From Alphaproteobacteria bacterium (GTDB lineage Bacteria > Pseudomonadota > Alphaproteobacteria > Bin65): a stretch of DNA of 64,000 nucleotides. The notes under the pieces are model-generated. The model was not told where the DNA came from. It did not search any database and worked only from the letters and a program-made list of their open reading frames with translations. Positions 40,542-59,785 of this stretch are shown in pieces. The position numbers were made by a program, and so were the translations under genes. Where the stretch lies: the NCBI GenBank assembly GCA_021776685.1, contig JAJFFJ010000071.1, positions 1-64,000 of the forward strand, written 5' to 3'. Numbering within the stretch: position 1 is the stretch's first letter; each line of letters begins with the position of its first letter.

Positions 40542-40588
40542 AACCTGCCATCCGGCCAGCCAGCTGAATCGAGCGCGGTGCCTGCTTC

Positions 40589-41347: not shown

Positions 41348-41377
41348 TTGATTTCTTCCGTTCGCTAAAGTGTCGTC

Positions 41378-42571: not shown

Positions 42572-42702
42572 CGGTTCCCACGTCTCAGTGACAAATTCGA
42601 TATACTTCTGGTCAGCCTTGGGCTGGTGTTCGCTTCGCGCCAGTCAGGTCCGGTCAGGCATTCAGATTTGCCAGCCTTCCAATACCGTCGTATAACCGGG
42701 AT

Positions 42703-42719
42703 AGTTTCATACGAAAACT
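42703..42719. promoter_or_regulatory. Candidate operator before tphA2
   Basis: A perfect 5+7+5 inverted repeat, AGTTT-N7-AAACT, lies 53 bases before the tphA2 start in the thiolase/tphA2 divergent region. It resembles the GTTT/GAAAC-type dyads bound by IclR-family regulators of aromatic-acid operons. No regulator gene is adjacent, so the assignment is tentative. Confidence 0.35.
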
Positions 42720-42772
42720 CAGTTGGCAAGCGCCCGGCTGCGCTGGCTTTTCTGAAACCAAAGCACAGGCGC

Positions 42773-44008
42773 GTGACCACGAAAACCGACAGTGATATCT
42801 GGCCGGATCCCGGCATATCCCGCGTCCCTTATCAGGTTTACGCAGCGCCCGATATCTATGCGCAGGAGCGGGAGCGGGTCTTCATGGGCCCTGCCTGGCA
42901 TTTCCTTTGCCTGGATTGCGAGATCCCTAACCGCGGCGACTACAAAAGCACCTTTGTGGGTGACATCCCGGTGATTGTCGTGCGCGCCAGGGACGGGTCG
43001 GTCAATGGGCTGGAGAACCGCTGTTCCCACCGCGGCGCGACGCTCTGCCTTGAGAAATTCGGCAACCTTCGCAGCTTCTCCTGCGTCTACCACGGCTGGA
43101 GCTATGATCTCGATGGCAACCTGAAGGGGGTGCCTTTCGAGCGGGGCGTCAATGGCGGCGGTGGCATGCCAGAGGACTTCCGCAAGGAGGACAACGGCCT
43201 GCGCCGCCTGCGCATCGCGACCCATGCAGGCGTGGTTTTCGGCACATTCCACGACGACACACCGCCCTTGGCCGACTATCTGGAACCCGCCTTTGTGGAG
43301 AAGGTCGCTCGCGTCATGCCCCGAGCGGTGAAGGTGCTCGGCTACAATACCCAGGTCATGCACAACAACTGGAAACTCTACGCCGAGAATGTGCGGGACC
43401 CCTATCACGCCAGCATCCTGCATCTGTTCTTCACCACCTTCAAAATGAACCGACTGACCCAGCGGGGCGAAATCCTGGTGAATGACGAAGGTGGCCACCA
43501 CGTCAGCACGAACTGGCGTGATCCGGACGCCAGCATCGACACTTACAGGGAACAGGACCTGCGCGCCGTCGACGACGAGTTTGCGCTGAACGACCCCACC
43601 CTGCTCGACTATCAGGATGAGTTTGACGACAACGGCACCCTGCAGATCCTCTCGGTCTTCCCAGGCTTCGTCATGCAGCAGATTTACAATTGCCTGGCCG
43701 TGCGCCAGATCGTGCCCAAGGGGCCGGACCTGACAGAGGTCAACTGGACCTACTACGGCTTTGAAGACGACGCCGACGACCTGACCACCCTGCGGCTCAA
43801 GCAGGCCAACCTGATTGGACCCGCCGGATATATTTCCATGGAGGACGGCGCGGTTGGCGAGTTTGTGCAGCGCACTTTGCCGGGCGCCCAGTCCGAGGAA
43901 ACCATTTTGATGATGGGCGGCCACACAGCGGAGTCCCAGACCAGCCGGGCGACGGAAACCTCGATCCGTGGATTCTGGAAGGCCTGGCGCCGGTATATGG
44001 AGATCTAA
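42773..44008 (+). CDS. tphA2: Terephthalate 1,2-dioxygenase-like Rieske oxygenase, large subunit (TphA2-like)
   Basis: 411 aa from GTG 42773. Rieske cluster: C-x-H in ENRCSHRGATLCLEKFG and C-x-x-H in CVYHGWSY. Mononuclear iron region: NWKLYAENVRDPYHASILHLFFTTF. From memory, it matches TphA2 of terephthalate degraders along its length, including GGHHVS, LQILSVFPGFVMQQI, LKQANLIGPAGYISMEDGAVG and RATETSIRGFWKAWR. It would dihydroxylate an aromatic (di)carboxylate in the cytoplasm. The upstream open frame to 42626 includes the probable promoter. The small subunit follows after 3 bases. Confidence 0.82.
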   Translation: MTTKTDSDIWPDPGISRVPYQVYAAPDIYAQERERVFMGPAWHFLCLDCEIPNRGDYKSTFVGDIPVIVVRARDGSVNGLENRCSHRGATLCLEKFGNLRSFSCVYHGWSYDLDGNLKGVPFERGVNGGGGMPEDFRKEDNGLRRLRIATHAGVVFGTFHDDTPPLADYLEPAFVEKVARVMPRAVKVLGYNTQVMHNNWKLYAENVRDPYHASILHLFFTTFKMNRLTQRGEILVNDEGGHHVSTNWRDPDASIDTYREQDLRAVDDEFALNDPTLLDYQDEFDDNGTLQILSVFPGFVMQQIYNCLAVRQIVPKGPDLTEVNWTYYGFEDDADDLTTLRLKQANLIGPAGYISMEDGAVGEFVQRTLPGAQSEETILMMGGHTAESQTSRATETSIRGFWKAWRRYMEI

Positions 44009-44011
44009 CCG

Positions 44012-44491
44012 GTGCCAGACACTCTCCTGGCGGCCAACCTGACCGCCTCGCAATTGCTGGCAGATTATGCGGCCTGCATCGATGCCGATGGCCTTGAACA
44101 ATGGCCCGACTTTTTCGTCGACGATGGCCTCTACCATGTGACAACAGCCTTCAACCACAGCCGTGGTTTGCCCGCCGGCATCATCCATGCCGACGGCAAG
44201 GCGATGATGCAGGACCGCGTCACGTCGCTTCGCCGCGCCAACATTTACGAGCCCCAGCGCTATCGTCACGTGATCTCCACTGTGCGGGTCATCCAGGCGA
44301 AGGAGAACCTGATTGAGACGGAAGCCAATTTCCTGGTAGTGCGCATCATGGAGAGCGGCAAGCAAGATCTGTTCGTCTGCGGCCGGTACCTGGACCGGAT
44401 CACCACTGCCGATGGCGCAGCCCGCTATGAAAAGAAGCTAGTGGTGCTGGACAGCGAGAAGGTGGACACCCTCCTCGCAATCCCCCTGTGA
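44012..44491 (+). CDS. tphA3: Terephthalate dioxygenase-like small subunit (TphA3-like)
   Basis: 159 aa, GTG start after GGAG. The sequence DGLEQWPDFFVDDGLYHVT, ANIYEPQRYRHVIS, LVVRIMESGKQDLFVCGRYLD and the ending VDTLLAIPL align with TphA3/beta-subunit NTF2-like proteins. It is the non-catalytic subunit that stabilises the large subunit. Its stop overlaps the next start (GTGA), so the pair and tphB are translationally coupled. Confidence 0.82.
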   Translation: MPDTLLAANLTASQLLADYAACIDADGLEQWPDFFVDDGLYHVTTAFNHSRGLPAGIIHADGKAMMQDRVTSLRRANIYEPQRYRHVISTVRVIQAKENLIETEANFLVVRIMESGKQDLFVCGRYLDRITTADGAARYEKKLVVLDSEKVDTLLAIPL

Positions 44492-45483
44492 CCGTGGCCA
44501 TGACGAAGCCCCGCATCGCGCTGCCTCTCGGCGACCCGCACGGCATCGGCCCGGAGATCGCACTGAAAGCGGCCGCCGACCCGGCGGTGCAGGCGGCCTG
44601 TGAACCGGTGCTGATCGGCGACGGACACGTGATCGCCCACTATGCCGAAAGCCTGCACCTCAACCTTCCTGCAAGCGAAGATTTTGCCGCCTCGCCGTTT
44701 GCCACCGGCGGCCTGAGCCAGCCACCCGCTGCAGGTACCGTCACGGCAGAAGCCGGCCGCGCCACCGTCGCCTATGCACAGGCGGCGATCGGACTGGCGC
44801 TGGGCGGGGCAGTAGATGCCGTCGTGGCGGCCCCCCACAACGAGACCGCGGTTGCCGCCGCGGGCATCCCGTTCAGTGGCTATCCGTCTCTGGTTGCGCA
44901 GGAGACGGGCACGCCGGAGGAGGCGGTGTTCCTGATGCTGGTGAGCCCTGAGTTCCGCATCGTCCATGTAACGCTACATGTGAGCCTGCGGCAGGCCCTG
45001 GACATGATCACTGTCGACCGCGTTCTCACTGCCATTCGCGCGGCCCACACCACCTTAAACAGCCTTGGCATGGCGCACCCGCGTATTGGCGTCGCCGGCC
45101 TCAATCCCCACGCCGGCGAAGATGGCTTATTCGGCGAGGAGGACCGCCTGGTCATCGCCCCTGCGGTCGCAACCGCCCGGGAGGACGGCCTGTCGGTGGA
45201 TGGTCCTTTGGGGGCCGACCTCCTCCTCGCCGACCGCGCCCATGACGTCTATGTGGTGATGTTGCACGATCAGGGGCACATCCCGATCAAACTGGCGGGG
45301 CGGGGCAACTCGTTCGGCATCACCATCGGCGCCGGAATCCTGTTTTCCAGCGTCGCCCATGGCAGCGCCTATGACATTGCCGGCCGCGGCGTCGCAGACG
45401 CCATTCCATTCATCAACACAATCTTGCATATGGCGCGCCAACTCACCCGCGCGCCCAACCTTGTCGAGAAAGAGTCACCATGA
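44488..45483 (+). CDS. tphB: PdxA-family dihydrodiol dehydrogenase (TphB-like)
   Basis: 331 aa. PdxA-fold motifs: LPLGDPHGIGPEIALKA, PHNETAVAAAGIPFSGYPSL, RIVHVTLHVSLRQAL, LNPHAGEDGLFGEED and MLHDQGHIPIKLAGRG, with His residues that bind the metal. TphB is a PdxA-family enzyme that oxidises and decarboxylates the cis-dihydrodiol of terephthalate to protocatechuate. Order after tphA2-tphA3 argues for this over pyridoxal-phosphate synthesis. GTG start 44488 (ATG 44500 also possible). It couples by ATGA to the next Rieske gene. Confidence 0.82.
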   Translation: MTVAMTKPRIALPLGDPHGIGPEIALKAAADPAVQAACEPVLIGDGHVIAHYAESLHLNLPASEDFAASPFATGGLSQPPAAGTVTAEAGRATVAYAQAAIGLALGGAVDAVVAAPHNETAVAAAGIPFSGYPSLVAQETGTPEEAVFLMLVSPEFRIVHVTLHVSLRQALDMITVDRVLTAIRAAHTTLNSLGMAHPRIGVAGLNPHAGEDGLFGEEDRLVIAPAVATAREDGLSVDGPLGADLLLADRAHDVYVVMLHDQGHIPIKLAGRGNSFGITIGAGILFSSVAHGSAYDIAGRGVADAIPFINTILHMARQLTRAPNLVEKESP

Positions 45484-46544
45484 CGACCAAGGGAAAGGCT
45501 TCGCCCTATCTGCGGAACTGCTGGTATGTCGCCGGCTGGGCGCGCGAAGTGCAACGCCTGCACATGTTCCGCCGCATCCTGCTGGGCGAGCCTGTGGTGC
45601 TGTACCGCAAAGGCGACGGGACTCCGGTCGCCCTGGAAGATCGGTGCATGCATCGCCACGCCCCCCTGTCCCATGGGCGGCTGCAGGGCGACAATATCGA
45701 ATGCGCCTATCATGGGTTGGTGTTCGACCCCGACGGCGCCTGTATCAAGATTCCCAGCCAGGACACGATCCCGCCCAATGCCTGTGTCAGGAGCTATCCG
45801 GTCGCGGAAAAACACCGGTGGGTGTGGATTTGGATGGGCGATCCCGCCAAGGCGGACGAGTCATTGATCCCTGATTTCCACTGGATGGACCACGAAGGCT
45901 TCGCCTGGCGCGGAGAGACGCTCCATGTAGAAGGCAACTACATGCTGGTGGTCGAAAATCTGATGGACCTCAGTCACTTGCCCAGCTTGCATCTGACCAC
46001 CCTTGCGGACACGGCAGTGCCTGAGAACGAGGAATTTCCGGTTACCTTCGAGACCAAGGGCAACGACATTCATATCAATCGCTGGGTCCGGGACGTGCCG
46101 CCGCCGCCCTATTTTCGCCTGCTCGGCGATTTCAAGAAAGGTGACCGTGTCGATCGCTGGATGGACTCCCACTTCACGCCACCAAGTTTTGTGCGTATCG
46201 ACATTGGCGCCTGCCCGGCAGGTTCCGGCCAGTTGGATGGCGACCGGACCGGCGTGCAGACGGCCATGAATCTCAACGCTGTCACCCCGGAAACAGCCAC
46301 CTCCGCCCACTATTTCTGGGCACAGGCACAGAATTTCAGTGAAGGCGACGAGTCAATCAGCGAAGTGGATTTCCGCCTGGTCCATGATGCCTTCCAGGAG
46401 GATCTCAGCATCATCCGCGGCCAGCAGGAAAATATCGATCTCAGCCCCGACGCCCCACGGTTGAACCTGGCCGCCGACAAGGGCGGCCTGCAGGCGACCC
46501 GCATGGTCGAGAAACTGGTGCGGGAAGAGCAGGAAGCGGGCTAA
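45480..46544 (+). CDS. One-component-type Rieske oxygenase (VanA/phthalate dioxygenase-like)
   Basis: 354 aa. Rieske cluster: C-x-H in DRCMHRHAPLSHG and C-x-x-H in IECAYHGLVFD; mononuclear iron site ENLMDLSHLPSLH. The N-terminus (YLRNCWYVAGWAREVQ) is typical of vanillate O-demethylase/phthalate 4,5-dioxygenase-type oxygenases. It would demethylate or hydroxylate an aromatic acid that feeds the tph-like enzymes. No reductase gene follows, so a partner reductase must be encoded elsewhere. Confidence 0.88.
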   Translation: MTTKGKASPYLRNCWYVAGWAREVQRLHMFRRILLGEPVVLYRKGDGTPVALEDRCMHRHAPLSHGRLQGDNIECAYHGLVFDPDGACIKIPSQDTIPPNACVRSYPVAEKHRWVWIWMGDPAKADESLIPDFHWMDHEGFAWRGETLHVEGNYMLVVENLMDLSHLPSLHLTTLADTAVPENEEFPVTFETKGNDIHINRWVRDVPPPPYFRLLGDFKKGDRVDRWMDSHFTPPSFVRIDIGACPAGSGQLDGDRTGVQTAMNLNAVTPETATSAHYFWAQAQNFSEGDESISEVDFRLVHDAFQEDLSIIRGQQENIDLSPDAPRLNLAADKGGLQATRMVEKLVREEQEAG

Positions 46545-46580: not shown

Positions 46581-47519
46581 CTAGGTAACAAACCCTTCGC
46601 TCTTCAGCCATCCTTCCAGCGCAGCCACGCATTCTGCCGGTCGTTCGATCTGCAGCAGATGGGACGAGTCAGGCACCAACTCATACGGGAGGCCCGTCTC
46701 CCGGGCGATTTCAGCGACGATCTTCGACACCGGCGACGGCCAGTCGCTGTCCGGATCCCCACCCAGCAGGAAAACCGGTACGGGTAGACTGGTCAGGGCC
46801 GGCCAGATTTGCGTGTGCACATTCTGCTCGTAATAGCGCGCCTCAAGCTCTTTCGGACAGCACAGGATGTATCCACCTTCCGGGTCTTCGCGGAACGTGG
46901 CGGCTGCGAACAACTCCGGTGACCCCGGCACCAACCGCCGAAACTGCGGCCGGGTGCGTAGCATTCGGATGTAGATGTCGAGGTCGTCAAATCGATCCGG
47001 CCTGCGGCGGGTCAGCTCCGCAATCCGCGCGTTGTGGGGCGCCTTGATCGCCTGCAGTGGATGTCCGTCGCGCGGATAGATCGGCGGATCGACCAGAAAC
47101 AGCAAATCCCAACGCAGCCCCTTCGCCATCACGTGCAGAAGCGCCGAGATCGCCGCTGCGGAATGAAACACCCCGGCCATCGGCTTGGCGCCGAACGCGT
47201 CATTGATGCAAGCCCAGATATGCTCGAAGTCCTCGGCGATCGTGTCCACGGGCCGGGCCGGCACACCGTCACCCTCCCCGGCCCCCTCTTTACATGGGGG
47301 GTTGCGGCCATGGCAGCGCAGGTCGAAGAGGACCACGTCGTAGCGGTCAAGAAGCGGCAGCCAGAAGGGCGCATAGAGATCGATTGCCAACCCGTTGCCA
47401 TGGCTGAGCGCCAGCCGTGGGCCTTCCAGCCGCCCCAACCGGCGAAGCAAAATCTGCGCCCCGTCGGGGAGCGTCAGCCAATGCTCGTCAGCGGCTGCAG
47501 GGATGGTTATCTGGGTCAT
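46581..47519 (-). CDS. Alpha/beta-hydrolase
   Basis: 312 aa from ATG 47519 (GGGG six bases ahead; GTG 47537 is also in frame). ALSHGNGLAIDLYAPFW (oxyanion region), LFDLRCHGRNP, and the nucleophile elbow GVFHSAAAIS, where Ser is followed by Ala instead of the usual G-x-S-x-G. The C-terminal His is in PDSSHLLQIERP. Last gene of the leftward hmf-like operon; possibly hydrolyses a lactone or thioester intermediate, but no named family was recognised. Confidence 0.8.
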   Translation of the reverse strand: MTQITIPAAADEHWLTLPDGAQILLRRLGRLEGPRLALSHGNGLAIDLYAPFWLPLLDRYDVVLFDLRCHGRNPPCKEGAGEGDGVPARPVDTIAEDFEHIWACINDAFGAKPMAGVFHSAAAISALLHVMAKGLRWDLLFLVDPPIYPRDGHPLQAIKAPHNARIAELTRRRPDRFDDLDIYIRMLRTRPQFRRLVPGSPELFAAATFREDPEGGYILCCPKELEARYYEQNVHTQIWPALTSLPVPVFLLGGDPDSDWPSPVSKIVAEIARETGLPYELVPDSSHLLQIERPAECVAALEGWLKSEGFVT

Positions 47520-47616
47520 CAACATCCCCACGCTCACCCCCGCGACGACAGCGGTCCAGCATCAAACGGCCTCTCGAATGCCGCCTTCAGGAGAACGACA
47601 TTCAAGGGCACCGGGA

Positions 47617-48426
47617 TTAGTCGCCAGTATATTCCGGCTTGCGCTTGTTAAAGAAGGCGTCCGCCCCTTCCTTGTAGTCGTGGCTGTCGCGCAGCTTCTC
47701 ATAGGCATGACCCTCCAACTCAAGGCCAACTTCCAGGCTGGTATCGTAGGCAGTGTTGAGGACCCGCTTGACCGTACGCAAGGCCAACGGCGAACTGGCT
47801 GCCAGCCGCTTGGTGTATTTTCCGATCATCTCCGTCAACGCGTCGCTATCCTCCGCCACGTCCGTCAGGATGCCCCAATCCAGCGCCTTCGGCGCAGGAA
47901 TGCGTTCACCCAGGTAGATCATGTGGTTGGCGCGCGTCAGGCCAATCAGGTTGGCGAGCCGGTGCGTGCCACCAGAGCCCGGGATTTCGCCGATGGTCAC
48001 TTCCGGAAGGCCGACCAAGGTCTCCTTCGTGGCCAGCCGGAAGTCGCAGGCCAAAGACAGCTCGAAGCCGACACCGAATGCGTATTTTTCCATGGCGCAG
48101 ATCACCGGCTTGCCGCATCTGGTGGGCGCGCCGATATTCCAGGCCAGGTGGCTCATGCCATCCCGCGGTACATCGAAAAAGCCTTTCACGTCGCCACCAG
48201 ATGTGTAGACACCATCGGCGCCGCGCACGACGATCACGCGCACGTCGTCGTCACGTCCGAATTCCTCGAAGATCGCCGATATCTGGCTCCGTGCCATGTA
48301 GCTGACGATATTGAGTGGCGGCCGGTCGAGGATCAGCCAGCCGATTTTCTTTTCGGCATCCACCTCTACGCGCAGGCCGTCCAGCTCCTCCAGGACCGAT
48401 GCGCGCCGCTTGGCGTATTTTTCCAT
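47617..48426 (-). CDS. hmfE: Crotonase-family 2-oxoglutaroyl-CoA hydrolase-like protein (HmfE-like)
   Basis: 269 aa. LILDRPPLNIVSYMARSQ, SGGDVKGFFDVPRDGMSHLAWNIGAPTRCGKPVI and FGVGFELSLACDFRLATK match the HmfE enzyme of the furoate pathway, which hydrolyses 2-oxoglutaroyl-CoA to 2-oxoglutarate. Both Glu sites of crotonases are present (FELSLACD and LPEVTIG). It follows hmfD by 78 bases. A close paralogue lies at 57180-57995. Confidence 0.72.
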   Translation of the reverse strand: MEKYAKRRASVLEELDGLRVEVDAEKKIGWLILDRPPLNIVSYMARSQISAIFEEFGRDDDVRVIVVRGADGVYTSGGDVKGFFDVPRDGMSHLAWNIGAPTRCGKPVICAMEKYAFGVGFELSLACDFRLATKETLVGLPEVTIGEIPGSGGTHRLANLIGLTRANHMIYLGERIPAPKALDWGILTDVAEDSDALTEMIGKYTKRLAASSPLALRTVKRVLNTAYDTSLEVGLELEGHAYEKLRDSHDYKEGADAFFNKRKPEYTGD

Positions 48427-48504: not shown

Positions 48505-50052
48505 TCAGACCGTGCTCTCAAAGCCTTCGAGAAGGTCATATTCCCCATCCCGCAGCTTGCGGCGCAGCAGTTTGCCCGACGCAGTGCGCGGAATGGCGTC
48601 GATAAAGGCATAGCCGCGGGGACGCTTGAAATTGGCGAGCGCGCCGTCCTGGCAAGCTTCATCCAGAGCGCTCGGCGACGCGCCATCCTTCGGCTCGACG
48701 AAGGCGACGACTTTCTGACCCATACGTTCGTCCGGCAGGCCGATAACAACCACGCCACGGCAAAGGCCGGACCGGAGCAGCGCATCTTCGACTTCTTCCG
48801 GATGGATATTTTCGCCGCCGGAGATGATCATGTCGTCGACGCGGCCCAGCACCCAAAGGTCGCCGTCCTCATCGATCTGCCCCAGGTCGCCGGTGTAGTA
48901 CCAGCCGTCGCGGATTGATTTCTCATTGGATTCGGGTCGGTTCCAGTAGCCTTCGAAGGCATCGGGCGCCGCCATGTTGAGGATGATCTCTCCCATCTCG
49001 CCCTGGGGCACCACCTCATCGGGCATGACCCGGCGGTCAGGGTCACCTGCCACAACCCGGAGTTCCTGATAGAGGCCGGGCCGTCCGGCATTGCCCGGCT
49101 TGGCTGCCTGATGGTCAGAGACGGAAAGCGTGTAGATCTCACTCGATCCGTAGAAATTGATGAATTTGCCCTGGTTGAAGGTCTCGCAGCAGCGCTCGAT
49201 CAGCGACGGCGCCATGGACATGCCCGCAAACCCCGCGCGGATGACGCTGGAGAAATCCCGCTCACCGATGTCAGCCCGGTTGAGGATGTCGTGATACATG
49301 GTCGGCACCAGGAAAATTGCGCCGATCTTCTCCTGCTCCACGGCCTCCAGCACCATCTCGGCACTATAGTCCGGCAGACAGACCATCTTGCCGCCCAGAA
49401 GGGCGGAAGCTTCCAGCGTCCGGATTCCCATAGTGTGAAACAGCGGCATGACGCAAAGTTGCGACAGGTCCCGCGGATATTCGTTCATGGCGATATGGGA
49501 CATGGTCGCCGACCATTCCGCCCGGTGCGACCGCGGAACGCCTTTGGGCCGCCCTGTGGTCCCGGAAGTGTAGAGCATCAGGGCCGTGGCGCTGTCTGGA
49601 ACGTCGCTGGGCCCGGCAACTGGATCGGCTTCCAACAGCGCCTCAAAGCCATCTCCCGCATCCGCCGCCGCGATGCGCCGGTCGGCCGCCAGTCCCGCGG
49701 CATCGCAGGCCGCAATGACCGCGTCGCCCGCCGCACCATCGTGGAGGCAAAGGACAGCGCCGGAATCTGACAGGCAATAGGTGATCTCTTCCGCGGTACC
49801 GCGCCAGCTGATCGGCGTAAATACGGCGCCCGCCATATAGCTGGCCCAGGCCAGGGTCGCCATCTCCCAGCGATTCTTCATCACCGCGCCTACGTGGTCA
49901 CCGGGGCGAACGCCCAGTGCCTGTAAACCACCGGTCACGCGGCACACGGATTCGTACCACTCAGCATAGGTCTGGCGATGCCCACCCTCGACGACTGCAA
50001 TCTCCTGCGGTGCGCGGGTAACCGCACGCTGAAATGCCTGCCCCAGATTCAT
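48505..50052 (-). CDS. hmfD: Acyl-CoA ligase, 2-furoyl-CoA synthetase-like (HmfD-like)
   Basis: 515 aa. LYTSGTTGRPKGVPRSH, NFYGSSEIYTL, YYTGDLGQIDEDGDL and the catalytic Lys in PRTASGKLLRRKL. It activates a small aromatic acid with ATP and CoA. Its position directly after a three-subunit molybdenum hydroxylase (ATGA overlap with the 2Fe-2S gene) and before an HmfE-like hydrolase is the hmfABCDE order of 2-furoate catabolism. A different aryl acid cannot be excluded. Confidence 0.75.
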   Translation of the reverse strand: MNLGQAFQRAVTRAPQEIAVVEGGHRQTYAEWYESVCRVTGGLQALGVRPGDHVGAVMKNRWEMATLAWASYMAGAVFTPISWRGTAEEITYCLSDSGAVLCLHDGAAGDAVIAACDAAGLAADRRIAAADAGDGFEALLEADPVAGPSDVPDSATALMLYTSGTTGRPKGVPRSHRAEWSATMSHIAMNEYPRDLSQLCVMPLFHTMGIRTLEASALLGGKMVCLPDYSAEMVLEAVEQEKIGAIFLVPTMYHDILNRADIGERDFSSVIRAGFAGMSMAPSLIERCCETFNQGKFINFYGSSEIYTLSVSDHQAAKPGNAGRPGLYQELRVVAGDPDRRVMPDEVVPQGEMGEIILNMAAPDAFEGYWNRPESNEKSIRDGWYYTGDLGQIDEDGDLWVLGRVDDMIISGGENIHPEEVEDALLRSGLCRGVVVIGLPDERMGQKVVAFVEPKDGASPSALDEACQDGALANFKRPRGYAFIDAIPRTASGKLLRRKLRDGEYDLLEGFESTV

Positions 50053-50552
50053 GCGGCCTTCCCCTCCGCCTGCACGCCTGCCGCCTCCAGAATCGCCCGC
50101 ACAATGCCGTCATAGCCAGTGCAGCGGCAGATATGCCCGCTCAACATCTCCCGCACCTGAAGCTCTGTGGGTGCCGGCGTTTCCTCCAAAAATGCCGTTG
50201 CCGACATCAGGATGCCGGCCGTACAGAAGCCGCATTGCAGGGCGTGATTGTTGCGGAAGGCGGCCTGCAAGGCGTTCAAAGTATCGCCATCTGCCAGGCT
50301 TTCGACGGTTTCGATCGAAGCGCCATCGGCCTGAACCGCATATTGGGTGCAGCTCCGTGACGGCACGCCGTCGATCAGCACCGTACAGGCGCCGCAAACG
50401 CCATGCTCGCAGCCCACATGGGTGCCATAGAGGCCCAGCTCGTGGCGCAGGAAATCTGCCAGCAACATTCGCGGTTCGGCGTAACCTTCATGGGCGCGGC
50501 CGTTCACGGTCATGCGGACGGAATGTTTGCTGTTGCCGCTCAGCCTGGTCAT
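50049..50552 (-). CDS. hmfC: Molybdenum hydroxylase 2Fe-2S subunit (HmfC-like)
   Basis: 167 aa. Two iron-sulfur clusters: C48, C53, C56 and C68 in the plant-ferredoxin-type half (GCEHGVCGACTVLIDG) and C107, C110, C142, C144 in the alpha-helical half (CGFCTAG, CRCTGY). It transfers electrons from the Mo centre to FAD. Start and stop both overlap neighbours by 4 bases (ATGA), so translation is coupled. Confidence 0.88.
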   Translation of the reverse strand: MTRLSGNSKHSVRMTVNGRAHEGYAEPRMLLADFLRHELGLYGTHVGCEHGVCGACTVLIDGVPSRSCTQYAVQADGASIETVESLADGDTLNALQAAFRNNHALQCGFCTAGILMSATAFLEETPAPTELQVREMLSGHICRCTGYDGIVRAILEAAGVQAEGKAA

Positions 50553-51403
50553 GAACCTGCCTCCCCGGCGGCTTCCATCAGCGCACGTTTGCCCAGAACC
50601 CCCGCCAACTGCCGGCGATAGGCGGCGTCGGCCACATGGTCGTCCATGGGGTCGGTGCGCCCGGCAATGTCTCTGGCGACCTGCGTTGCAAGATTCTCGT
50701 CGACGGGCGCGCCCGCGAATTCTTTCAGATCAAAGGCAACCGGACGGTCTTCCACGCCACCCAGACCAAGCCTGCCACCCGCGAGGCTTCCCGTAGCATC
50801 CAGCTCAATCCATACCGCCGCCGCGGTCAGCGCAAAATCACCATGGCGCTGTGCCTCTTCAACAAAGCCGAAGCTGCCGCTTCGACGTGGCCAGTGAATC
50901 GCCGTGATCATCTCCGTCGGCTGGCGGGCGGTGGTCAGGACGCCCTCGAAAAAATCATCGGCCGCGACGCGACGCGAACCGTCTTTGCTTTGCAGCTCGA
51001 CCTCGCCGCCCAGTGTCAACAGACACAGGGGCAGTTCTGCGCTGGGATCCGCATGGGCGATGCTGCCACCCAGGGTGCCGCGGCTGCGGGTCTGGTAGTG
51101 GCCGATCGACGGCATGGCTTTAGCCAGCAGGGGCACCACCGTCATCAGGAGATCGTCGCGCATCGCCTGCGTCTGGCGCAGCATGGCGCCGGTGGTGACC
51201 GCACCGTTGGCCGTAATTCCGCCGAGACCAGCCGTCCGGTTCAGATCGATAACCAGTGAAGGTGTTGCCGCGCGCAAGTTCAGCATCGGCCCGAGCGACA
51301 TACCACCCGCCAGCAGAACCGCATCGTCACCGGCTTCCAGCAGCAGATCGAGCACCTCTTCGATACTGCTTGCGCGCACATAGTCAAAGGCGACCGGCTT
51401 CAC
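50549..51403 (-). CDS. hmfB: Molybdenum hydroxylase FAD subunit (HmfB-like)
   Basis: 284 aa from GTG 51403. FAD-binding PCMH fold: VLLAGGMSLGPMLNLR and GTLGGSIAHADPSAELP, followed by a CO-dehydrogenase-flavoprotein C-terminal domain. The GTG overlaps the stop of the large subunit (GTGA) and has AGGAG ahead; the TTG at 51424 would leave the ribosome site inside the frame. Confidence 0.88.
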   Translation of the reverse strand: MKPVAFDYVRASSIEEVLDLLLEAGDDAVLLAGGMSLGPMLNLRAATPSLVIDLNRTAGLGGITANGAVTTGAMLRQTQAMRDDLLMTVVPLLAKAMPSIGHYQTRSRGTLGGSIAHADPSAELPLCLLTLGGEVELQSKDGSRRVAADDFFEGVLTTARQPTEMITAIHWPRRSGSFGFVEEAQRHGDFALTAAAVWIELDATGSLAGGRLGLGGVEDRPVAFDLKEFAGAPVDENLATQVARDIAGRTDPMDDHVADAAYRRQLAGVLGKRALMEAAGEAGS

Positions 51404-53844
51404 GCTTTTGTCTCCTGCAGCCAACGCCAGACCTTTGGCATGGTCAGGGGCGGCGAGATATCCGCCCGACCCAACGCATCCGCCACTGCGTTGGTGAGCG
51501 CAGCAGGCGCCAGCATGGAAGAGCCATCCCCCAATCCTTTGGCGCCGAGTTTCGTCTTGGGCGAAGGCGTCGGCACATGGCCAACCTCGAAGTCCGGCAC
51601 TTCCATGGCGGTGGGACAGAGATAGTCAGCGAAAGTCCCTGAGAGGAAATTGCCATCCTCGTCATAAGTCATTTCTTCGAACATTGCGCCGCCGAGGCCG
51701 TGGACGAACCCGCCGATGATCTGCCCTTCGACGATCTTGGGATTGAGCAACTCTCCCACGTCATGAACCGAGACATATTTTTCAATGGTGATCCGGCCGG
51801 TCTCGGCATCGATCTCCACCGCCGCCAGATCGAAGATCGCGCCATAGGTGACCGAGGACGCTACGGTATCTTCCGGCGTGGGCCCGTCCAGATCGGCCGT
51901 CACCGTCGTTGTCTCATAGATGCCGGGCTCAACCCCGTCCGGCAGGTTGACCGGGTTCCAATGTGCCTGGGTCCCGACCCGTGTCAGCGATAGCGCTTTG
52001 TCGGAGCCAACAATGCGTGCTTGCCCCTCGACCAGTTCCACATCCTCAACCGCACATTCAAGCTGATCCGCGGCCATGATCTTGAGTTTTCGCGCCACCC
52101 GGTCGGCCCCTTCGACGACGGCGTCGGTCACGGCAACAGAGAAACGGTTGCCATAGTTGCCGGATCCAATGGACCAGGGGCTGGTCATGGTGTCGATTTC
52201 CGTGATCACATCCACATCGTCCGGCGTGATGCCCAGCGCGTCAGCGACAATCTGGGCTGTAACCGTTGCGTGGCCTTGCCCATTGGGCGTGCTGTCGAGC
52301 TGTACGGTCACGCCGCCGGAAGGGTCCATGGAGATGACGACGCTGGAATTCGCCCCCGATTTGGCGCCGGACTTGGCGCGTTCTTCCGGTGTCTGAGCGA
52401 GGCTGACATAGCCCATGTTGGAGCCGGATGGCTCGACCGCACATGCGATGCCAATGCCGTATAGCTTCCCTTCGGCGCGCTTCTCATCCCGGCGCTTCTT
52501 CAGCGCCTGATAGTCCGCGCGGGCCTCGAGTTCGTCGACGCATTTTTGGTAGTCGCCCGCATCCATCACTGACCCGCCGGGGGTCTCGTAAGGGAAAGCG
52601 TCTTTGTCGATGAAATTACGACGGCGAAGATCCACTGGGTCGATGTTCAGCTCCCGCGCCGCGTGATCCATGAAGCGCTCGAGTGAATAGAAGAACTGGG
52701 TGCCGCCATAGCCGCGGTTTAGCCCGACCGGCACCTTATTGGTGACGACCAGGTAGTTCTCGGTGTGGATGTTCTGCACACCGTAGCAGCCATTCAAAGT
52801 GGACTGCATGCGGTAGACGGAGGCGGGCTCGGGCGGCCGGAGAAAGGCGCCCATGTCGTTGATGTTGCGAAAGCGTAGCGCCGTCAGTTCACCGTCCGCC
52901 GCAAACGCGCCGGTCACCGTACCGCTGCGGCCGGTTGCTGCCGATGACGCCGCCAGATGTTCCAGCCGGTCCTCGGTCCATTTCACGGGTACGCCCAGGA
53001 TACGGCTGACCGCGCAAAGCAACACGATATAGGCGGCGACGCCCTGCTTAATGCCGAAACTACCGCCCGAAGCCTGTGCCGTAATCAGTCGCAACCGGTT
53101 ACCCGGCACGCCCAGCGCGCCGGCCATCAACGGCTGAATCACAAACGGGCCCTGAAAGTTCGACCACACGGTATAGCGGTCGGGCACACTTTCGAAGTTG
53201 GCGACGACGCCATAGGTTTCCATGGGAGTGGAGGAATAGCGCTGGATGTGAAAGTCCAGGCTGACCACATGGGCGGCTTCGTCAAAGGCGCTCTCAGGAT
53301 CGCCATTGATGATCGTGCGATGGCCAGCAACATTGCTGCCGGCCACGTCGTGCAGCACCGGCGCATCGTCTGCCATCGCCGCTTCGGCGTCGATCGCGGC
53401 ATCCAGCGGTTCGTACTCCACTTCAATCAGGTCGAGAGCGTCTTCGGCCAGATACCGGTCGCGGGCCACCACCACGGCCACCGGCTCGCCGACAAACCGC
53501 GCCTTGTCGATGGCGATAGGCATGAATCTGATGGGCGTTCGCACCACACTCGGGATGCCACGGAGATATTCAGCCACCTGTTCGCCGGTGACGACGCCGT
53601 AGACACCGCTCAGCGCAAGCGCGGCGGAAGCGTCGATGCTGGTGATCTTTGCGTGGGCATAGGGCGAGCGCAGGATCGCGGCATGGCGCAGGCCGGCCAC
53701 CGGCTCCATATCGTCGATGAAGCGGGCACTGCCGGTCAGCAGCGCCGCGTCTTCCTTTCGCGGCACGGACTTGCCAATCCAGCGATCTGGCCAACGACCT
53801 GGCTTGCCGGACGATCCGTCCGTCGGAACCTCTGTTTCCGCCAT
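51400..53844 (-). CDS. hmfA: Molybdenum hydroxylase large subunit, 2-furoyl-CoA dehydrogenase-like (HmfA-like)
   Basis: 814 aa. It has the two aldehyde-oxidase/xanthine-dehydrogenase domains: GKSVPRKEDAALLTGSARFIDD at the N-terminus and the molybdopterin region QASGGSFGIKQG, LNRGYGGTQ, TPNGQGHATVTAQ. It would hydroxylate the ring of 2-furoyl-CoA at C5 with water-derived oxygen. At the C-terminal catalytic Glu position (GVGE in CoxL and xanthine dehydrogenase) this protein reads GLGDGSS, an Asp. First gene of the coupled hmfABCD block; the E1-like gene is 114 bases upstream. Confidence 0.82.
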   Translation of the reverse strand: MAETEVPTDGSSGKPGRWPDRWIGKSVPRKEDAALLTGSARFIDDMEPVAGLRHAAILRSPYAHAKITSIDASAALALSGVYGVVTGEQVAEYLRGIPSVVRTPIRFMPIAIDKARFVGEPVAVVVARDRYLAEDALDLIEVEYEPLDAAIDAEAAMADDAPVLHDVAGSNVAGHRTIINGDPESAFDEAAHVVSLDFHIQRYSSTPMETYGVVANFESVPDRYTVWSNFQGPFVIQPLMAGALGVPGNRLRLITAQASGGSFGIKQGVAAYIVLLCAVSRILGVPVKWTEDRLEHLAASSAATGRSGTVTGAFAADGELTALRFRNINDMGAFLRPPEPASVYRMQSTLNGCYGVQNIHTENYLVVTNKVPVGLNRGYGGTQFFYSLERFMDHAARELNIDPVDLRRRNFIDKDAFPYETPGGSVMDAGDYQKCVDELEARADYQALKKRRDEKRAEGKLYGIGIACAVEPSGSNMGYVSLAQTPEERAKSGAKSGANSSVVISMDPSGGVTVQLDSTPNGQGHATVTAQIVADALGITPDDVDVITEIDTMTSPWSIGSGNYGNRFSVAVTDAVVEGADRVARKLKIMAADQLECAVEDVELVEGQARIVGSDKALSLTRVGTQAHWNPVNLPDGVEPGIYETTTVTADLDGPTPEDTVASSVTYGAIFDLAAVEIDAETGRITIEKYVSVHDVGELLNPKIVEGQIIGGFVHGLGGAMFEEMTYDEDGNFLSGTFADYLCPTAMEVPDFEVGHVPTPSPKTKLGAKGLGDGSSMLAPAALTNAVADALGRADISPPLTMPKVWRWLQETKA

Positions 53845-53958: not shown

Positions 53959-56673
53959 TCACGCCAGCGCGGCGGCAATCGTCTTCGCCTGCGCAGCCTT
54001 GTGCCGGGCCGGGTATCCACTGGCCGACGACGGATTTGCCGCTGGCCCCACATACCGCAAGGGCGCGCCCTGAATCTCCCGCAGGCAGCGCTCCATATAA
54101 GTCCAGGGACCCATATTCATCGGCTCTTCCTGACACCATATCAGTTCTGCATCCGGATGCCGTGCCAGCTCCTGCCTCAAGGCCGCTTCCGGCAGCGGAT
54201 AGAGTTCTTCCACTCTTGTGACGGCGATGTCATCCCGGCCAGCCGCATCGCGCGCCTCCACCAAGTCATAGTAGATCCGCCCGCAGCAGAAAACATGACG
54301 CTGGGCGCGGTCCACGGACCCATCCCCCAACACCGGCGCGAAGCTTGATCCTGTCCCCAGATCCGCCAGATCCGACACCGCACGCCGGTGGCGCAGCAGT
54401 GATTTGGGCGTCATCAGCACCAGCGGCGTTCTGAAGTCGCGCAACATCTGGCGGCGCAGGACGTGGAAATAATTGGCCGGTGTGGTGCAGTTCACCACCT
54501 GAAGGTTGTCCCGGGCGCACAGTTGGAGAAACCTCTCGACCCGGGCGGAGGAATGATCGGGTCCGCCACCTTCCAGCCCATGGGGCAACAGCATGACCAG
54601 CCCTGAGAGCCGGAACCATTTCTCCTCCGCGGCGGCGATATACTGATCGATGATGATTTGGGCGCCATTCGCGAAATCGCCGAACTGCGCTTCCCAGCAG
54701 ACCAGCGTCTGGGGATCAGCCGTGCTGTAACCATACTCAAAACCGAGCACGCTCGCCTCGGCCAGGGGGCTGTCATAGAGCTCGAAACGCGCGCCGGGAT
54801 TGATGCCTCCGAGCGGCGCATGCGCCTGATCGGTGATCTGGTCGAAAAGCACACCATGACGATGGGAGAAGGTGCCGCGCCGGCTATCCTGCCCGGTCAG
54901 GCGGACGCCATGGCCGTCATCCAGCAAAGTGGCAAACGCAAGCGCCTCCGCCGTGGACCAGGCGATGCCTGCGCCCTGACTGACGCTCTCCTGCCGTTCA
55001 TCCAGTTGCCGGGCAATCTTAGGATGAACTGAAAAGCCGTCGGGCAGCATGTGCAGTTTCTTGCCCAACTCCCGGAGTCGTTCCGGTGCAACTCCGGTTT
55101 CGGGATCGGGATTGGCAGCAGACGAGCGGGTGTTGATGGCCGCCCATCGCCCCGCCCGCCAGTCTGGCGCGTTGGGCCGCCAGGTTTGCGCTGCCTCGAA
55201 ACCTTCCTCAAATCGGGCGAGATGCGGCGTCAGCAACGCCTGAGCCCCTTCCGCGTCGATCACGCCATCCGCCACCAGCCGATCCTGATATTGGCTGCGC
55301 ACCGGCGGCAATGCATCGACCTTCTGGTACATGCCCGGCTGGGTATAGCGGGGTTCGTCCATTTCGTTGTGACCGCGGCGGCGATAGCAGATCAATTCGA
55401 TTGCCACATCGACGCCAAAGGTCTCCCAGAAGTCGAAGGCCAGATCAGCAGCGCGAACGGCGGCTTCAGGGTCGTCCGCATTGACACGGAAAACAGGCGC
55501 GCCAATCAGCTTCACGATATCTGAGGCAAAACGGGAGCTGCGCTGATCTTCCGGCCGCGTCGTAAAGGCCACCCGGTTGTCGACGGTCACATGAATACTG
55601 CCGCGGGTCTGAAATCCGTCGAGGCGCGCCAGCTGCAGCGTTTCCGATACCAGCCCCTGGCCGGCAAAACCGCCATCCGTATGCATCATGATGCCCAGAA
55701 TCCGGCTGGGATCTTCCGCCATCGCCTGCTTGGCGCGAAGTTTGCCCAGGGAGACCGGGATCACCGCCTCGATATGGGAGGGGTGGCTGGCCATGGACAG
55801 TCTGATGGTTTTTCCATCGACCTCCCGGTTGCCGGAATGACCGATGTGGTAGGAAACGTCGCCAGCGGCGTCATAGTCTTCCGGGTACGGCGGCTTGCCA
55901 GCAAACTCGCCGATCACGGCCGCAAGCGGCTTGCCCATGAAGGTGGCCATGAAGGTGGTGCGACCCCGGTGCATGGGGCCGATGACGATCTCTTCGATAC
56001 CGGCGCCGACTGCCCGCTCCAGCAGCCGTTCCGACATCGGCAGCTGCGCCTCCGAGCCTTCCATCCCGAAGCGCTTGGACGTGGGATATTTCACCTGCAG
56101 GAAGTTCTCAAAGCCCTCTGCAACGGTCAGCTGTTCGAGAATCCAGCGGCGCTGGTCCGCTGCTGGCTGCCGCGCGCCCAGATCCTCCATCCGCGTGGCA
56201 ATCCATTGTCGCTGCGTGCTGTCCTCCAGATGGGCGAAGTCTGCCGAGAGAGAGCCGCAATAGCTGGCTTTGAGATGATCGATCAGGGACCGCAGGGTGG
56301 TTGCGTCGCCGCTCGTGACACCCTTTGTGACGCCGGCGAAAGCCATTTCCAGATCGGCTTCCGACAGGCCATGAAAAGCGGGATCGAGATCGGCGAGGTC
56401 AGGCTTGTCGGCCAACCCCAGAGGATCATAGTCCGCCACCAGATAGCCTCTGGCCCGGTAGGCATCAATCAGCCGCGCAACGCGTCCGTCCAACATATTC
56501 GGGACTGTAGAAGCTGTCGGCACCGCAGCGCCGTTCGTCGCAACCGGCACCGGCCGCCCTTCGAACAACGCCCGCCAGTCGGCCGGCACTGAGGCCGGAT
56601 CGCGCCGGTATTGCGCCTCCAAAGCGTCGAACCATGCCGGGTCTGCGGAAAGAAGCATCTTGCCGTCGGTCAT
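53959..56673 (-). CDS. 2-oxoglutarate dehydrogenase E1-like (SucA paralogue)
   Basis: 904 aa, slightly shorter than usual SucA. The thiamine-diphosphate site is recognisable (HTDGGFAGQG, then VTVDNRVAFTT), with IGPMHRGRTT and GHNEMDEPRYTQP. The usual SucA strand NPSHLEAV reads HPSHIEAV, and several segments diverge. No sucB (E2) or lpd (E3) follows. Position in the hmf region suggests that it uses 2-oxoglutarate or a related 2-oxo acid made by the pathway, perhaps sharing E2/E3 with the main complex. It could also be a carboligase-type paralogue. Confidence 0.85.
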   Translation of the reverse strand: MTDGKMLLSADPAWFDALEAQYRRDPASVPADWRALFEGRPVPVATNGAAVPTASTVPNMLDGRVARLIDAYRARGYLVADYDPLGLADKPDLADLDPAFHGLSEADLEMAFAGVTKGVTSGDATTLRSLIDHLKASYCGSLSADFAHLEDSTQRQWIATRMEDLGARQPAADQRRWILEQLTVAEGFENFLQVKYPTSKRFGMEGSEAQLPMSERLLERAVGAGIEEIVIGPMHRGRTTFMATFMGKPLAAVIGEFAGKPPYPEDYDAAGDVSYHIGHSGNREVDGKTIRLSMASHPSHIEAVIPVSLGKLRAKQAMAEDPSRILGIMMHTDGGFAGQGLVSETLQLARLDGFQTRGSIHVTVDNRVAFTTRPEDQRSSRFASDIVKLIGAPVFRVNADDPEAAVRAADLAFDFWETFGVDVAIELICYRRRGHNEMDEPRYTQPGMYQKVDALPPVRSQYQDRLVADGVIDAEGAQALLTPHLARFEEGFEAAQTWRPNAPDWRAGRWAAINTRSSAANPDPETGVAPERLRELGKKLHMLPDGFSVHPKIARQLDERQESVSQGAGIAWSTAEALAFATLLDDGHGVRLTGQDSRRGTFSHRHGVLFDQITDQAHAPLGGINPGARFELYDSPLAEASVLGFEYGYSTADPQTLVCWEAQFGDFANGAQIIIDQYIAAAEEKWFRLSGLVMLLPHGLEGGGPDHSSARVERFLQLCARDNLQVVNCTTPANYFHVLRRQMLRDFRTPLVLMTPKSLLRHRRAVSDLADLGTGSSFAPVLGDGSVDRAQRHVFCCGRIYYDLVEARDAAGRDDIAVTRVEELYPLPEAALRQELARHPDAELIWCQEEPMNMGPWTYMERCLREIQGAPLRYVGPAANPSSASGYPARHKAAQAKTIAAALA

Positions 56674-56696
56674 GCGTCCGCGAAGCCCGCCCCTGC

Positions 56697-57158
56697 CTAT
56701 CCGGCAATCCGGTTATAGAGTTCCAGATAACGGGTGCGAATCTGATCCTCTGAAAGCTCCGGCTGGTAGGTGTAGATCGGCGAGTTGACTGGACGGGCGC
56801 TCTCTACCCGCATCTTCACCACGTGGTTCACCGGATACATGTCGCCAGCCTTCTCCCAGAATGGTTTGGCAACGGCATCGAAATCCGGACCTTCCTCCAG
56901 CACCTCTGCCTGGCCTTTGAAGCGATAGCCCCGGCGCAGGAAGATATCGACAATATTGATCTCCATCGCCGGGTTGCGCTGCACATTGGCCACGGTCTGC
57001 GGCGACATGCAGTCAGCGAATCCGATATGGTCATCATCGATCACCGCCAGGGACGCCTTTGGCGACAGGTTGGGCGAGCCATCCTCGTTTACCGTCGCGG
57101 CAAAGCACAATCCGGTCGTGACGATCATGGCACGCATCTCGTTGGTCAATAGCGTCAT
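56697..57158 (-). CDS. Pyridoxamine 5'-phosphate oxidase-like FMN-binding protein
   Basis: 153 aa from ATG 57158, with GGAG seven bases ahead. The split-barrel fold of PNPOx-like proteins is visible: LLTNEMRAMIVTTGLCFAATVNEDGSPNLSPKASLAV, VANVQRNPAMEINIVDIFLRRGYRFKGQAEV. Members bind FMN, F420 or haem and often reduce small molecules; true PNPOx activity is unlikely in this short type. It sits between the HmfE paralogue and the E1-like gene on the same strand. Confidence 0.82.
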   Translation of the reverse strand: MTLLTNEMRAMIVTTGLCFAATVNEDGSPNLSPKASLAVIDDDHIGFADCMSPQTVANVQRNPAMEINIVDIFLRRGYRFKGQAEVLEEGPDFDAVAKPFWEKAGDMYPVNHVVKMRVESARPVNSPIYTYQPELSEDQIRTRYLELYNRIAG

Positions 57159-57179
57159 GCCGAAACTCCTTTCGCCCAC

Positions 57180-57995
57180 TCACATGTCTGAAAAGTCGGG
57201 CTTCTTCTTTCCCATGAAGGCGTCGATGCCATGCTTGAACTCTGGCCCCGGACGCAGTTTCTCGAATGCCTGGCCTTCCAATTCCATACCCACATGCAGC
57301 GGCGCATCTTCCGATGCATTCAACACCCATTTGAGTGTGGAAAGTGGCACCTGAGGTCGCGCGGCCAGGTCCTCGACCCATCGATCGATGGCCTCGTCCA
57401 GGCCGCCATCGGGCACAACTTCTGACACCAAGCCCCAGTCAAAGGCCACTTGAGCTGAAATGCGGCGGCCGCGCATGACCATTTCCTTTGCCCGTGAGAG
57501 GCCGGCGATTTTCGCAACCCGGTGGGTGCCGCCACTGCCTGGGATGATGCCCAGGTTAATTTCCGGCAGGGCGAGTTGGCTGTTTTCGGTAGCGATGCGG
57601 AAATCACAGGCCATCGCCAATTCGAAAGAAACTCCCATGGCGAATTTCTCGATACCGACAATCACAGGTTTGCGGCAGCGCTCCGGGGTCGCCACATTGA
57701 ACGCGAGATCGGACATGTGATCCCGGTCCACCTTGAGGAAGCCGGGAATTTCGCCGCCCGAGCTGTAAACCCCGTTGGCGCCCCGAATGACGATCACGCG
57801 CACGTCCGGATCCTGATCCATCTCTTCGAGCAAGGCGCGTATCTGGAACCGGTTCTTGAACGTGATGATGTTCATGGGTGGCCGGTCGAAGATTAGATAG
57901 CCGGCCCGCTTGGCCGTATCCTTCTCCACCCGGATACCGTCCAGATCCTCAAGCAGGATCGCCCTCGACCGTGCGTATTCTTCTGCTGCGTTCAT
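57180..57995 (-). CDS. Crotonase-family protein, second HmfE-like paralogue
   Basis: 271 aa from ATG 57995. LIFDRPPMNIITFKNRFQ, SSGGEIPGFLKVDRDHMSDLAFNVATPERCRKPVI and MGVSFELAMACDFRIAT align segment by segment with the hmfE-like protein at 47617-48426, and it ends GIDAFMGKKKPDF as that one ends GADAFFNKRKPEY. Both crotonase Glu are present. It may act on a related oxoacyl-CoA, or be the upstream hydratase of the route. First gene of the leftward transcription unit; divergent from the GFA gene. Confidence 0.85.
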   Translation of the reverse strand: MNAAEEYARSRAILLEDLDGIRVEKDTAKRAGYLIFDRPPMNIITFKNRFQIRALLEEMDQDPDVRVIVIRGANGVYSSGGEIPGFLKVDRDHMSDLAFNVATPERCRKPVIVGIEKFAMGVSFELAMACDFRIATENSQLALPEINLGIIPGSGGTHRVAKIAGLSRAKEMVMRGRRISAQVAFDWGLVSEVVPDGGLDEAIDRWVEDLAARPQVPLSTLKWVLNASEDAPLHVGMELEGQAFEKLRPGPEFKHGIDAFMGKKKPDFSDM

Positions 57996-58576: not shown

Positions 58577-59785
58577 CTACTCTGCCGCCGCGGCCAGGCC
58601 ACCTGACACCACGCCAGACGCTTTCAAGCCTTCAATTTCTGCAGTCGTATAGCCGGCGGCGGCCAGAATTTCGTCGGTCTGTTCGCCCAACACCGGCGCA
58701 GGTCTGGGCAGGTCAACGGGTGTTTCCGAAAAGCTGGCTGCAGCGCGGGCCTGGCGCAGCGGCCCGGCCACCGGGTGTTCCGTCTCGATTACCAGGCCGT
58801 TGGCTTCCACTTGCGGATGATGGATCATTTCCCGGCGCGTGAGCACTGGTACGCATGGCACGTCCGCCTTTTCCAGCCGCTCAAGCCACTCGGCGGAGGC
58901 GCGGGTGCGCAACACTTCCTGGGTCATGTTCAGCCGGTCATTGACGTTTTTCTGCCGGCCCGCAGGTGTCGAAAACCGGGGATCGTCGCGCCATTCCAGC
59001 CGCTCAAGCGCCTCGGTCAACCCATACCACTGCTTGTCGGTCATCGCCGCCACGGTGATATAGCCGTCGGCCGTTTCATAGATCAGGTCGATCTCGCTCT
59101 GCGCCGGCTCTGTCGCCGGCTCGTCGCCAACGAACGTGCTGCTGTTCATGTCAGACGACCACAGGAAGGCGACGATGCTGTCGAGCATCGAGAGGTGAAC
59201 ATGCTGCCCTTTTCCTGTGCGCTCGCGGGCCAGAAGGGCCGCCGTGATCGCCTGGGAGGCAGTGATACCTGTCAGCTTGTCCGGGACGATGGTGCGCACC
59301 AGCCGGGGCCGCGCCTCGTCCGAGCCCGCCTGAACCGAGGTCAGACCGGACAGCGCCTGAACCAGCGGATCGAACACGGGTTTGTGGCTGAGCGGTCCCT
59401 CGTGCCCGAAGCCGCTGATCGAGACATAGACGATGCCAGGAGCAACCGCCCGCACCGCAGCCTCGCCCACGCCCATGCGGTCGGTGACGCCGGGGCGGAA
59501 GTTCTGGATGAACACATCCGCATCCCGGCAGAGGTGCAACACAACATCGACCGCGCCGTCCGCCTTCATGTCCACGGCGATCGACGTCTTGTTGCGGTTG
59601 TTGTTGACGAAGGATGCGGACATGCCATTCCGCTGCTCCGCCGCCGTCCGCGTGTGGTCGCCAATCGACGGGTTCTCGACCTTGATGACTTCCGCCCCCT
59701 GGTCCGCCAGGATCATGGTCGCCAGCGGGCCGGAGATCTGCGAGGTCATGTCGATGATACGAAACCCGGTCAGCGGTCCGGCCAT
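58577..59785 (-). CDS. CaiB/BaiF-type class III CoA transferase
   Basis: 402 aa. FRIIDMTSQISGPLATMILADQGAEVIKVENP, NRNKTSIAVDMK, VFIQNFRPGV and SISGFGHEGPLSHKPVFDPLVQALSGL; the Asp in FDPLVQ is at the position of the catalytic Asp of formyl-CoA transferase. It would move CoA between carboxylic acids, for example from succinyl-CoA to an aromatic acid. A 27-base gap separates it from the YCII gene upstream. Confidence 0.92.
   Translation of the reverse strand: MAGPLTGFRIIDMTSQISGPLATMILADQGAEVIKVENPSIGDHTRTAAEQRNGMSASFVNNNRNKTSIAVDMKADGAVDVVLHLCRDADVFIQNFRPGVTDRMGVGEAAVRAVAPGIVYVSISGFGHEGPLSHKPVFDPLVQALSGLTSVQAGSDEARPRLVRTIVPDKLTGITASQAITAALLARERTGKGQHVHLSMLDSIVAFLWSSDMNSSTFVGDEPATEPAQSEIDLIYETADGYITVAAMTDKQWYGLTEALERLEWRDDPRFSTPAGRQKNVNDRLNMTQEVLRTRASAEWLERLEKADVPCVPVLTRREMIHHPQVEANGLVIETEHPVAGPLRQARAAASFSETPVDLPRPAPVLGEQTDEILAAAGYTTAEIEGLKASGVVSGGLAAAAE

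Follow-up and report, generated by a model that had tools for sequence, protein, structure and literature searches.

A stand-alone 2-oxoglutarate dehydrogenase E1 subfamily in Alphaproteobacteria, with one member beside a second HmfE-like crotonase ahead of a furoate cluster

The furoate (hmf) cluster in a 64,000-nucleotide stretch of alphaproteobacterial DNA (Alphaproteobacteria bacterium, GCA_021776685.1, contig JAJFFJ010000071.1, positions 1-64,000; hereafter the window) is preceded on the same strand by a paralogue of the 2-oxoglutarate dehydrogenase E1 component and by hmfE2, a second crotonase gene of the HmfE lineage. Judged by its sequence, the window E1 is a member of a deeply split subfamily of stand-alone E1 proteins that lies outside the canonical E1o clade. 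We are evenly divided on the further reading that hmfE2 and the E1 would together serve the furoate pathway as a terminal catabolic module, with the E1 using the housekeeping E2 and E3 components in the manner of human DHTKD1. Residue numbers are those of E. coli SucA where stated, and the E1 gene carries the following features.

53959-56673, minus strand: stand-alone E1 of the 2-oxoglutarate dehydrogenase type, dependent on thiamine diphosphate (ThDP), 904 residues (PF16078, PF00676, PF02779, PF16870; NF006914)
56557-56640, minus strand: N-terminal motif, residues 12-39, PAWFDALEAQYRRDPASVPADWRALFEG (PF16078, 29.3 bits against a cut-off of 27)
55972-55977, minus strand: signature P233-M234 before the catalytic H235 (E. 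coli 258-260)
55768-55785, minus strand: HPSHIE, residues 297-302, an altered NPSHLE strand (N319H in E. coli numbering; from the alignment)
55678-55680, minus strand: signature T332, HTD in place of HGD, beside the Mg/ThDP aspartate
54556-54558, minus strand: D706, GPDHSS in place of GPEHSS (E728D in E. coli numbering; from the alignment), the same change as human DHTKD1 Asp707

Profile queries comprised the window E1 and stand-alone relatives from Thalassobaculum, Azospirillum plasmids and Pseudorhizobium. Of the 385 alphaproteobacterial genomes sampled, 8, among them that of the window, carry a second E1; the subfamily members found number 13, all from Alphaproteobacteria. In the tree, 12 of them lie on one side of a 100/100 branch and all canonical E1o proteins lie on the other, including the canonical copies from the same genomes. 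Long branches leave the order within the tree uncertain, but the signature residues are independent of the tree: in E. coli numbering, M259 and T356 are each present in 12 of 12 members and in a further E1 from genome G074 (see below), and each is absent from all 45 canonical E1s, as is the M/T pair at 259/356. Subfamily members also lack M258, K296 and G619. Nothing closer to the window E1 than about 52% identity over full length was found in the Alphaproteobacteria or in a broad phylum sample, and plasmid searches gave no close orthologue. An exact scan with 8-residue patterns from the window E1 returned mainly canonical sucA, plus one paralogue from Thalassobaculum (L025).

Neighbourhoods were labelled from our own open reading frame calls and BLAST. 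A sucB gene lies within about 10 kb of none of the 12 subfamily loci, compared with 81 of 84 canonical loci; conversely, a CaiB-type coenzyme A (CoA)-transferase is found near 7 and a GlcD-type oxidase near 5 of the 12, against 0 of 84 canonical loci in either case. Not all of these counts are independent: the 12 include several congeneric members, and contig ends truncate some loci. Most subfamily loci are organic-acid catabolic clusters with CaiB CoA-transferases. In the open-access literature searched, we found neither an E1 subfamily of this kind nor a furoate cluster containing an E1 described.

The window E1 is not the sucA of its genome. The assembly (98.9% complete) contains exactly one other E1, which is 50% identical to the window E1 and is followed by sucB on contig C62; this canonical locus excludes the window E1 as the only sucA, an outcome that would have undone the original prediction. 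Nor is it a recent sucA duplicate, as the canonical sucA groups with its own family and the window E1 falls outside all canonical E1s. GC content is alike in the window (0.618) and contig C62 (0.615) and, among the genomes searched, those of the same family have the closest hmf genes, so that the contig is not visibly foreign to the assembly.

One link to furoate metabolism comes from G074, a distant alphaproteobacterium of another family. Our first conclusion, that no relative links this E1 to hmf genes, was overturned when a search with hmfE2 reached an orthologue there (78% identity). On its small contig hmfE2 is followed 20 nt downstream by an E1, of which the first 489-odd residues are present. 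That E1 has 52% identity to the window E1 and no more than 46% to any other subfamily member; the two linked E1s share 15 residues found in them alone (0-4 for control pairs) and are joined at 100/99 in the tree. Both hmfE2-linked E1s have H301 and H319 (E. coli numbering), and D728 of the window E1 lies beyond the break in G074. G074 also has a separate canonical sucA-sucB, split over two contigs, and a contig with hmfA and hmfC that breaks inside hmfA. The HmfE2 protein points the same way. The tree places it on the furoate-cluster HmfE side of a fork (90/98) that sets other crotonases apart, and it is 47-53% identical to HmfE proteins, HmfE1 being about 30% identical to other crotonases. 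Because hmfE2 is of the HmfE lineage, the hmfE2-E1 pair is tied to furoate chemistry independently of its map position.

The window locus runs 5' to 3' as hmfE2, the PNPOx-like gene, the E1, hmfA, hmfC, hmfB, hmfD, hmfE1 and an alpha/beta hydrolase gene, all on one strand.

57180-57995, minus strand: hmfE2, HmfE-lineage crotonase, 271 residues, ATG start (PF00378)
56697-57158, minus strand: PNPOx-like protein of a flavin mononucleotide (FMN)-binding family (PF01243, 1.8e-17); probable start ATG 57158 with an AAAGGAG ribosome site
51400-53844, minus strand: hmfA-like molybdopterin subunit of furoyl-CoA dehydrogenase (MoCoBD domains; 62-65% to hmf clusters of the same family)
50549-51424, minus strand: hmfC-like flavin adenine dinucleotide (FAD) subunit (PF00941)
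50049-50552, minus strand: hmfB-like 2Fe-2S subunit (PF01799/PF00111)
48505-50052, minus strand: hmfD-like furoyl-CoA synthetase (PF00501; 70% to the G002 hmf cluster)
47617-48426, minus strand: hmfE1, the cluster's canonical HmfE (81% to the G002 hmf cluster; tree)
46581-47537, minus strand: alpha/beta hydrolase, weakly PcaD-like, 3' of hmfE1, a candidate for the lactone hydrolysis step

The arrangement matches what had been predicted from the DNA alone: an E1 paralogue without E2 or E3 upstream of the hmf genes on the same strand (all four features are present), with a PNPOx-like protein and a second HmfE-like crotonase directly upstream of it, as borne out by the Pfam matches. No E2 or E3 gene lies near the window E1. 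Molybdopterin, FAD and 2Fe-2S subunits, a CoA ligase and HmfE stand in a single run, a probable furoate operon; the Pfam content of hmfA, C, B, D and E is that of furoate clusters, and their order is that of the Cupriavidus and Dinoroseobacter plasmid clusters. For the PNPOx-like gene, whose start may alternatively be GTG 57179, the best relative in a 96-genome search is 53% identical. We rejected it as part of the core module, since its relatives adjoin unrelated genes and it is absent between hmfE2 and the E1 in G074. The furoate pathway includes a lactone hydrolysis without an assigned gene (PMC6678421). The enol-lactonase-like hydrolase at 46581-47537 has no counterpart that we saw in the hmf loci of relatives. 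Further along, 39153-46544 is an aromatic-type catabolic cluster (UbiD-like decarboxylase, PaaA-like protein, thiolase, Rieske alpha/beta, PdxA-like protein and VanA-like Rieske protein). Past the window, some 12 kb upstream of the window's own set, contig C127 holds a second hmfB/C/A-like molybdenum hydroxylase set (L139:5841-10101); the large subunits of the two sets are 45% identical.

The window E1 appears catalytically intact. It has all four Pfam domains of 2-oxoglutarate dehydrogenase E1, with PF16078 at the N terminus, and scores 1062 bits against NF006914 (cut-off 764). The fold of its AlphaFold model matches SucA and DHTKD1 structures throughout, with Vibrio SucA (6kma) as top match within a template modelling (TM) score range of 0.82-0.85; the monomer has a mean confidence (pLDDT) of 75.6 with active-site loops below 50, the active site spanning two subunits. 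Every catalytic or ThDP residue checked is kept (H260, H298, D357, N390, H460, E661 and H729). The absence of neighbouring E2 and E3 genes would suit an E2-independent ThDP enzyme, either a decarboxylase releasing a semialdehyde from a 2-oxo acid or a carboligase that joins such an acid to an aldehyde (glyoxylate or furfural, for example), and E1o proteins do bind or ligate aldehydes, the top fold match 6kma being Vibrio SucA with glycolaldehyde. However, we recognised no gene for an aldehyde dehydrogenase next to the window E1, and the subfamily keeps the docking motif and the histidines proposed to act in lipoyl transfer. The window motif RRDPASVPADWRALF, kept across the subfamily, aligns with the human E1o peptide 27-LENPKSVHKSWDIF-40, mapped as a contact site for E2o and E3 (PMC8146983). 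Likewise invariant in the subfamily are H460 and H729, equivalent to DHTKD1 H435 and H708, which are proposed to supply protons during lipoyl transfer (PMC8146983). From sequence, this docking motif and these histidines favour an E1 docking on a lipoyl E2, that is, a dehydrogenase, over a free carboligase, and we regard the E2-independent enzyme as very improbable.

The pocket combines conserved and altered positions. The 2-oxoglutarate-type residues F227, H260, Y297, H298, S302 and F394 are kept, whereas N319H, E728D, F/T301H, G356T and N389D alter positions that are otherwise conserved or pocket-adjacent. The HPSHIE change noticed in the original prediction is real and lies on a pocket strand: N319 is invariant in 45 of 45 canonical E1s. 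By its numbering, the serine on this strand presumably corresponds to DHTKD1 Ser288. In a published model, Ser288 contacts the substrate carboxylate (PMC8146983). Four DHTKD1 substitutions, Asp707 among them, favour the longer 2-oxoadipate (PMC7340257). A review (PMC8146983) gives another E. coli number for Asp707; we place it at 728 because its neighbour His708 corresponds to H729. N319H and E728D mostly occur together, the full-length subfamily members being HD in six cases, NE in five and HE in one. The conserved pocket residues, together with a furoate pathway whose end product is 2-oxoglutarate (PMC6678421), would fit a capacity isozyme, in which an ordinary 2-oxoglutarate E1 is co-expressed with hmf to meet a large influx of 2-oxoglutarate and no new substrate is involved. 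Yet the 100/100 split and the five altered positions exceed the divergence that an isozyme needs, and the paired duplication of hmfE2 is left unexplained; we consider the isozyme unlikely.

Stand-alone E1s on Azospirillum plasmids (L146, L147), annotated as tricarboxylic acid (TCA)-cycle E1, have Glu for Ser at pocket position 302 and adjoin a TRAP transporter, an acyl-CoA dehydrogenase, a GlcD-type oxidase, an SDR-family protein and CaiB. In three genomes of one genus (L196, L197, L198) the stand-alone E1 has the HD-type pocket (H319, D728) and adjoins a CaiB gene, divergently in L196 and convergently in L197 and L198, with a TRAP transporter and more catabolic genes nearby.

Several observations weigh against a module dedicated to furoate. 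The hmf clusters of six relatives (G002, G006, G008, G010 and G017, L131-L135; G134, L203) contain no E1, PNPOx or hmfE2, and neither do the plasmid hmf clusters of Cupriavidus, Dinoroseobacter and Geobacillus. In G002, G006, G008, G010 and G017, searches for hmfE2 matched only the cluster's own hmfE, and no subfamily E1 was found. With six relatives running hmfABCDE without it, the E1 is dispensable for furoate use. Other subfamily members sit in non-furoate clusters, and those found in the class sample lack an hmfA match at the threshold applied. The hmfE2-E1 pair is known from two genomes only, in two families, and the G074 assembly is 68% complete; direct adjacency of its E1 to hmfA is possible, both contigs breaking there. 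In the window, the 114-nt gap between the E1 and hmfA leaves room for a separate promoter, a promoter and terminator scan giving nothing either way. The predicted linkage is supported insofar as the hmfE2-E1 pair recurs in G074, which has hmfA; it is not supported as a general rule, being absent from the six relatives and three plasmid clusters.

The E1 could also be a passenger from another organic-acid pathway, perhaps together with the CaiB gene at 58577-59785 and the Ldh_2 gene at 62.2-63.4 kb (58.6-63.4 kb overall), and stand before hmf by chance. Its cousins, which lack hmf linkage, adjoin CaiB, transporters and hydroxyacid dehydrogenases, and the CaiB counts given above are in keeping with such an origin. 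On the small contig seen in G074, however, the nearest relative keeps hmfE2, not CaiB, beside the E1, and hmfE2 is itself a protein of the HmfE lineage; a passenger therefore seems rather improbable to us.

In the proposed terminal module, HmfE2 would hydrolyse the 2-oxoacyl-CoA from ring opening, freeing a 2-oxo-dicarboxylate that has five carbons or is substituted. The E1 would bind ThDP, decarboxylate the released 2-oxo acid and load the acyl group onto the lipoyl arm of housekeeping E2o (SucB). With E3 reoxidising the lipoyl group by means of NAD+, the product would be an acyl-CoA, which for 2-oxoglutarate is succinyl-CoA. By analogy, such a module would work like human DHTKD1, as a second E1 borrowing E2 and E3, but from a separate bacterial subfamily. 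We infer its substrate, complex formation and expression on furoate. The doubling of both steps would reflect either 2-oxoglutarate flux, as for an isozyme, or a substituted substrate, which the altered pocket would fit. More speculatively, and with considerable doubt, hmfE2-E1 may be a parallel exit for substituted furoates, in which HmfE2 frees a substituted 2-oxoglutarate unusable by SucA and the E1, with H301, H319 and D728, converts it to a new acyl-CoA through the E2/E3 of the housekeeping complex. On that view HTD-type E1s as a whole would be the bacterial equivalent of DHTKD1, with several substrates, and would feed unusual 2-oxo-dicarboxylates from many catabolic clusters into a shared E2/E3 core.

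In mammals, OGDH and DHTKD1 are two E1s served by one E2/E3 core. The alphaproteobacterial E1s are catalytically intact, lack an E2 at every locus examined and recur in catabolic clusters; this suggests that in bacteria, too, alternative E1s are fitted to the TCA-cycle complex to handle unusual 2-oxo acids. Subfamily genes are now annotated as TCA-cycle sucA, a label that misleads models of metabolism. The pair also points to an unrecognised terminal step in furan catabolism, a subject that bears on lignocellulose inhibitors and on plastics made from furans.

Compared with known systems, the window locus resembles the hmfABCDE cluster of the Cupriavidus basilensis HMF14 type in its five genes and in their order, which is also that of Dinoroseobacter, but adds hmfE2, PNPOx and the E1 in front; elsewhere among the clusters examined, only hmfE2-E1 in G074 is comparable. 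With SucA/E1o (NF006914, TIGR00239; E. coli 2jgd, Vibrio 6km9) the window E1 shares domain order, fold (TM 0.82-0.85), ThDP and catalytic residues and the docking motif. It differs in having no neighbouring sucB or lpd, in M259, T356, the non-M258 and non-K296 positions, N319H and E728D, in a shorter N-terminal region and in an identity of about 50% or less to any canonical E1. The catalytic part of actinobacterial OdhA/KGD is likewise of the E1o type, but the window E1, with 904 residues and no acyltransferase domain, is not a fused KGD; its signature residues differ, and it lies outside the clade of a plasmid KGD-like E1 (L208). The latter (L208:3914-6661, Streptomyces sp. NBC_01558 plasmid), a 915-residue E1 without fused E2 that is annotated as multifunctional KGD, shares Y227 and D728 with DHTKD1, has E302 and is possibly a bacterial 2-oxoadipate-type E1. 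Human DHTKD1, the 2-oxoadipate dehydrogenase E1a, is like the window E1 a second E1 without its own E2/E3, and its Asp707 equals E728D. Of its four pocket changes (Tyr190, Tyr370, Ser263 and Asp707; E. coli 227, 394, 297 and 728), only the last is found in the window E1, which is not a DHTKD1 orthologue because F227, Y297 and F394 are of the 2-oxoglutarate type; the two are 36-37% identical, and the window E1 is a bacterial protein of catabolic clusters.

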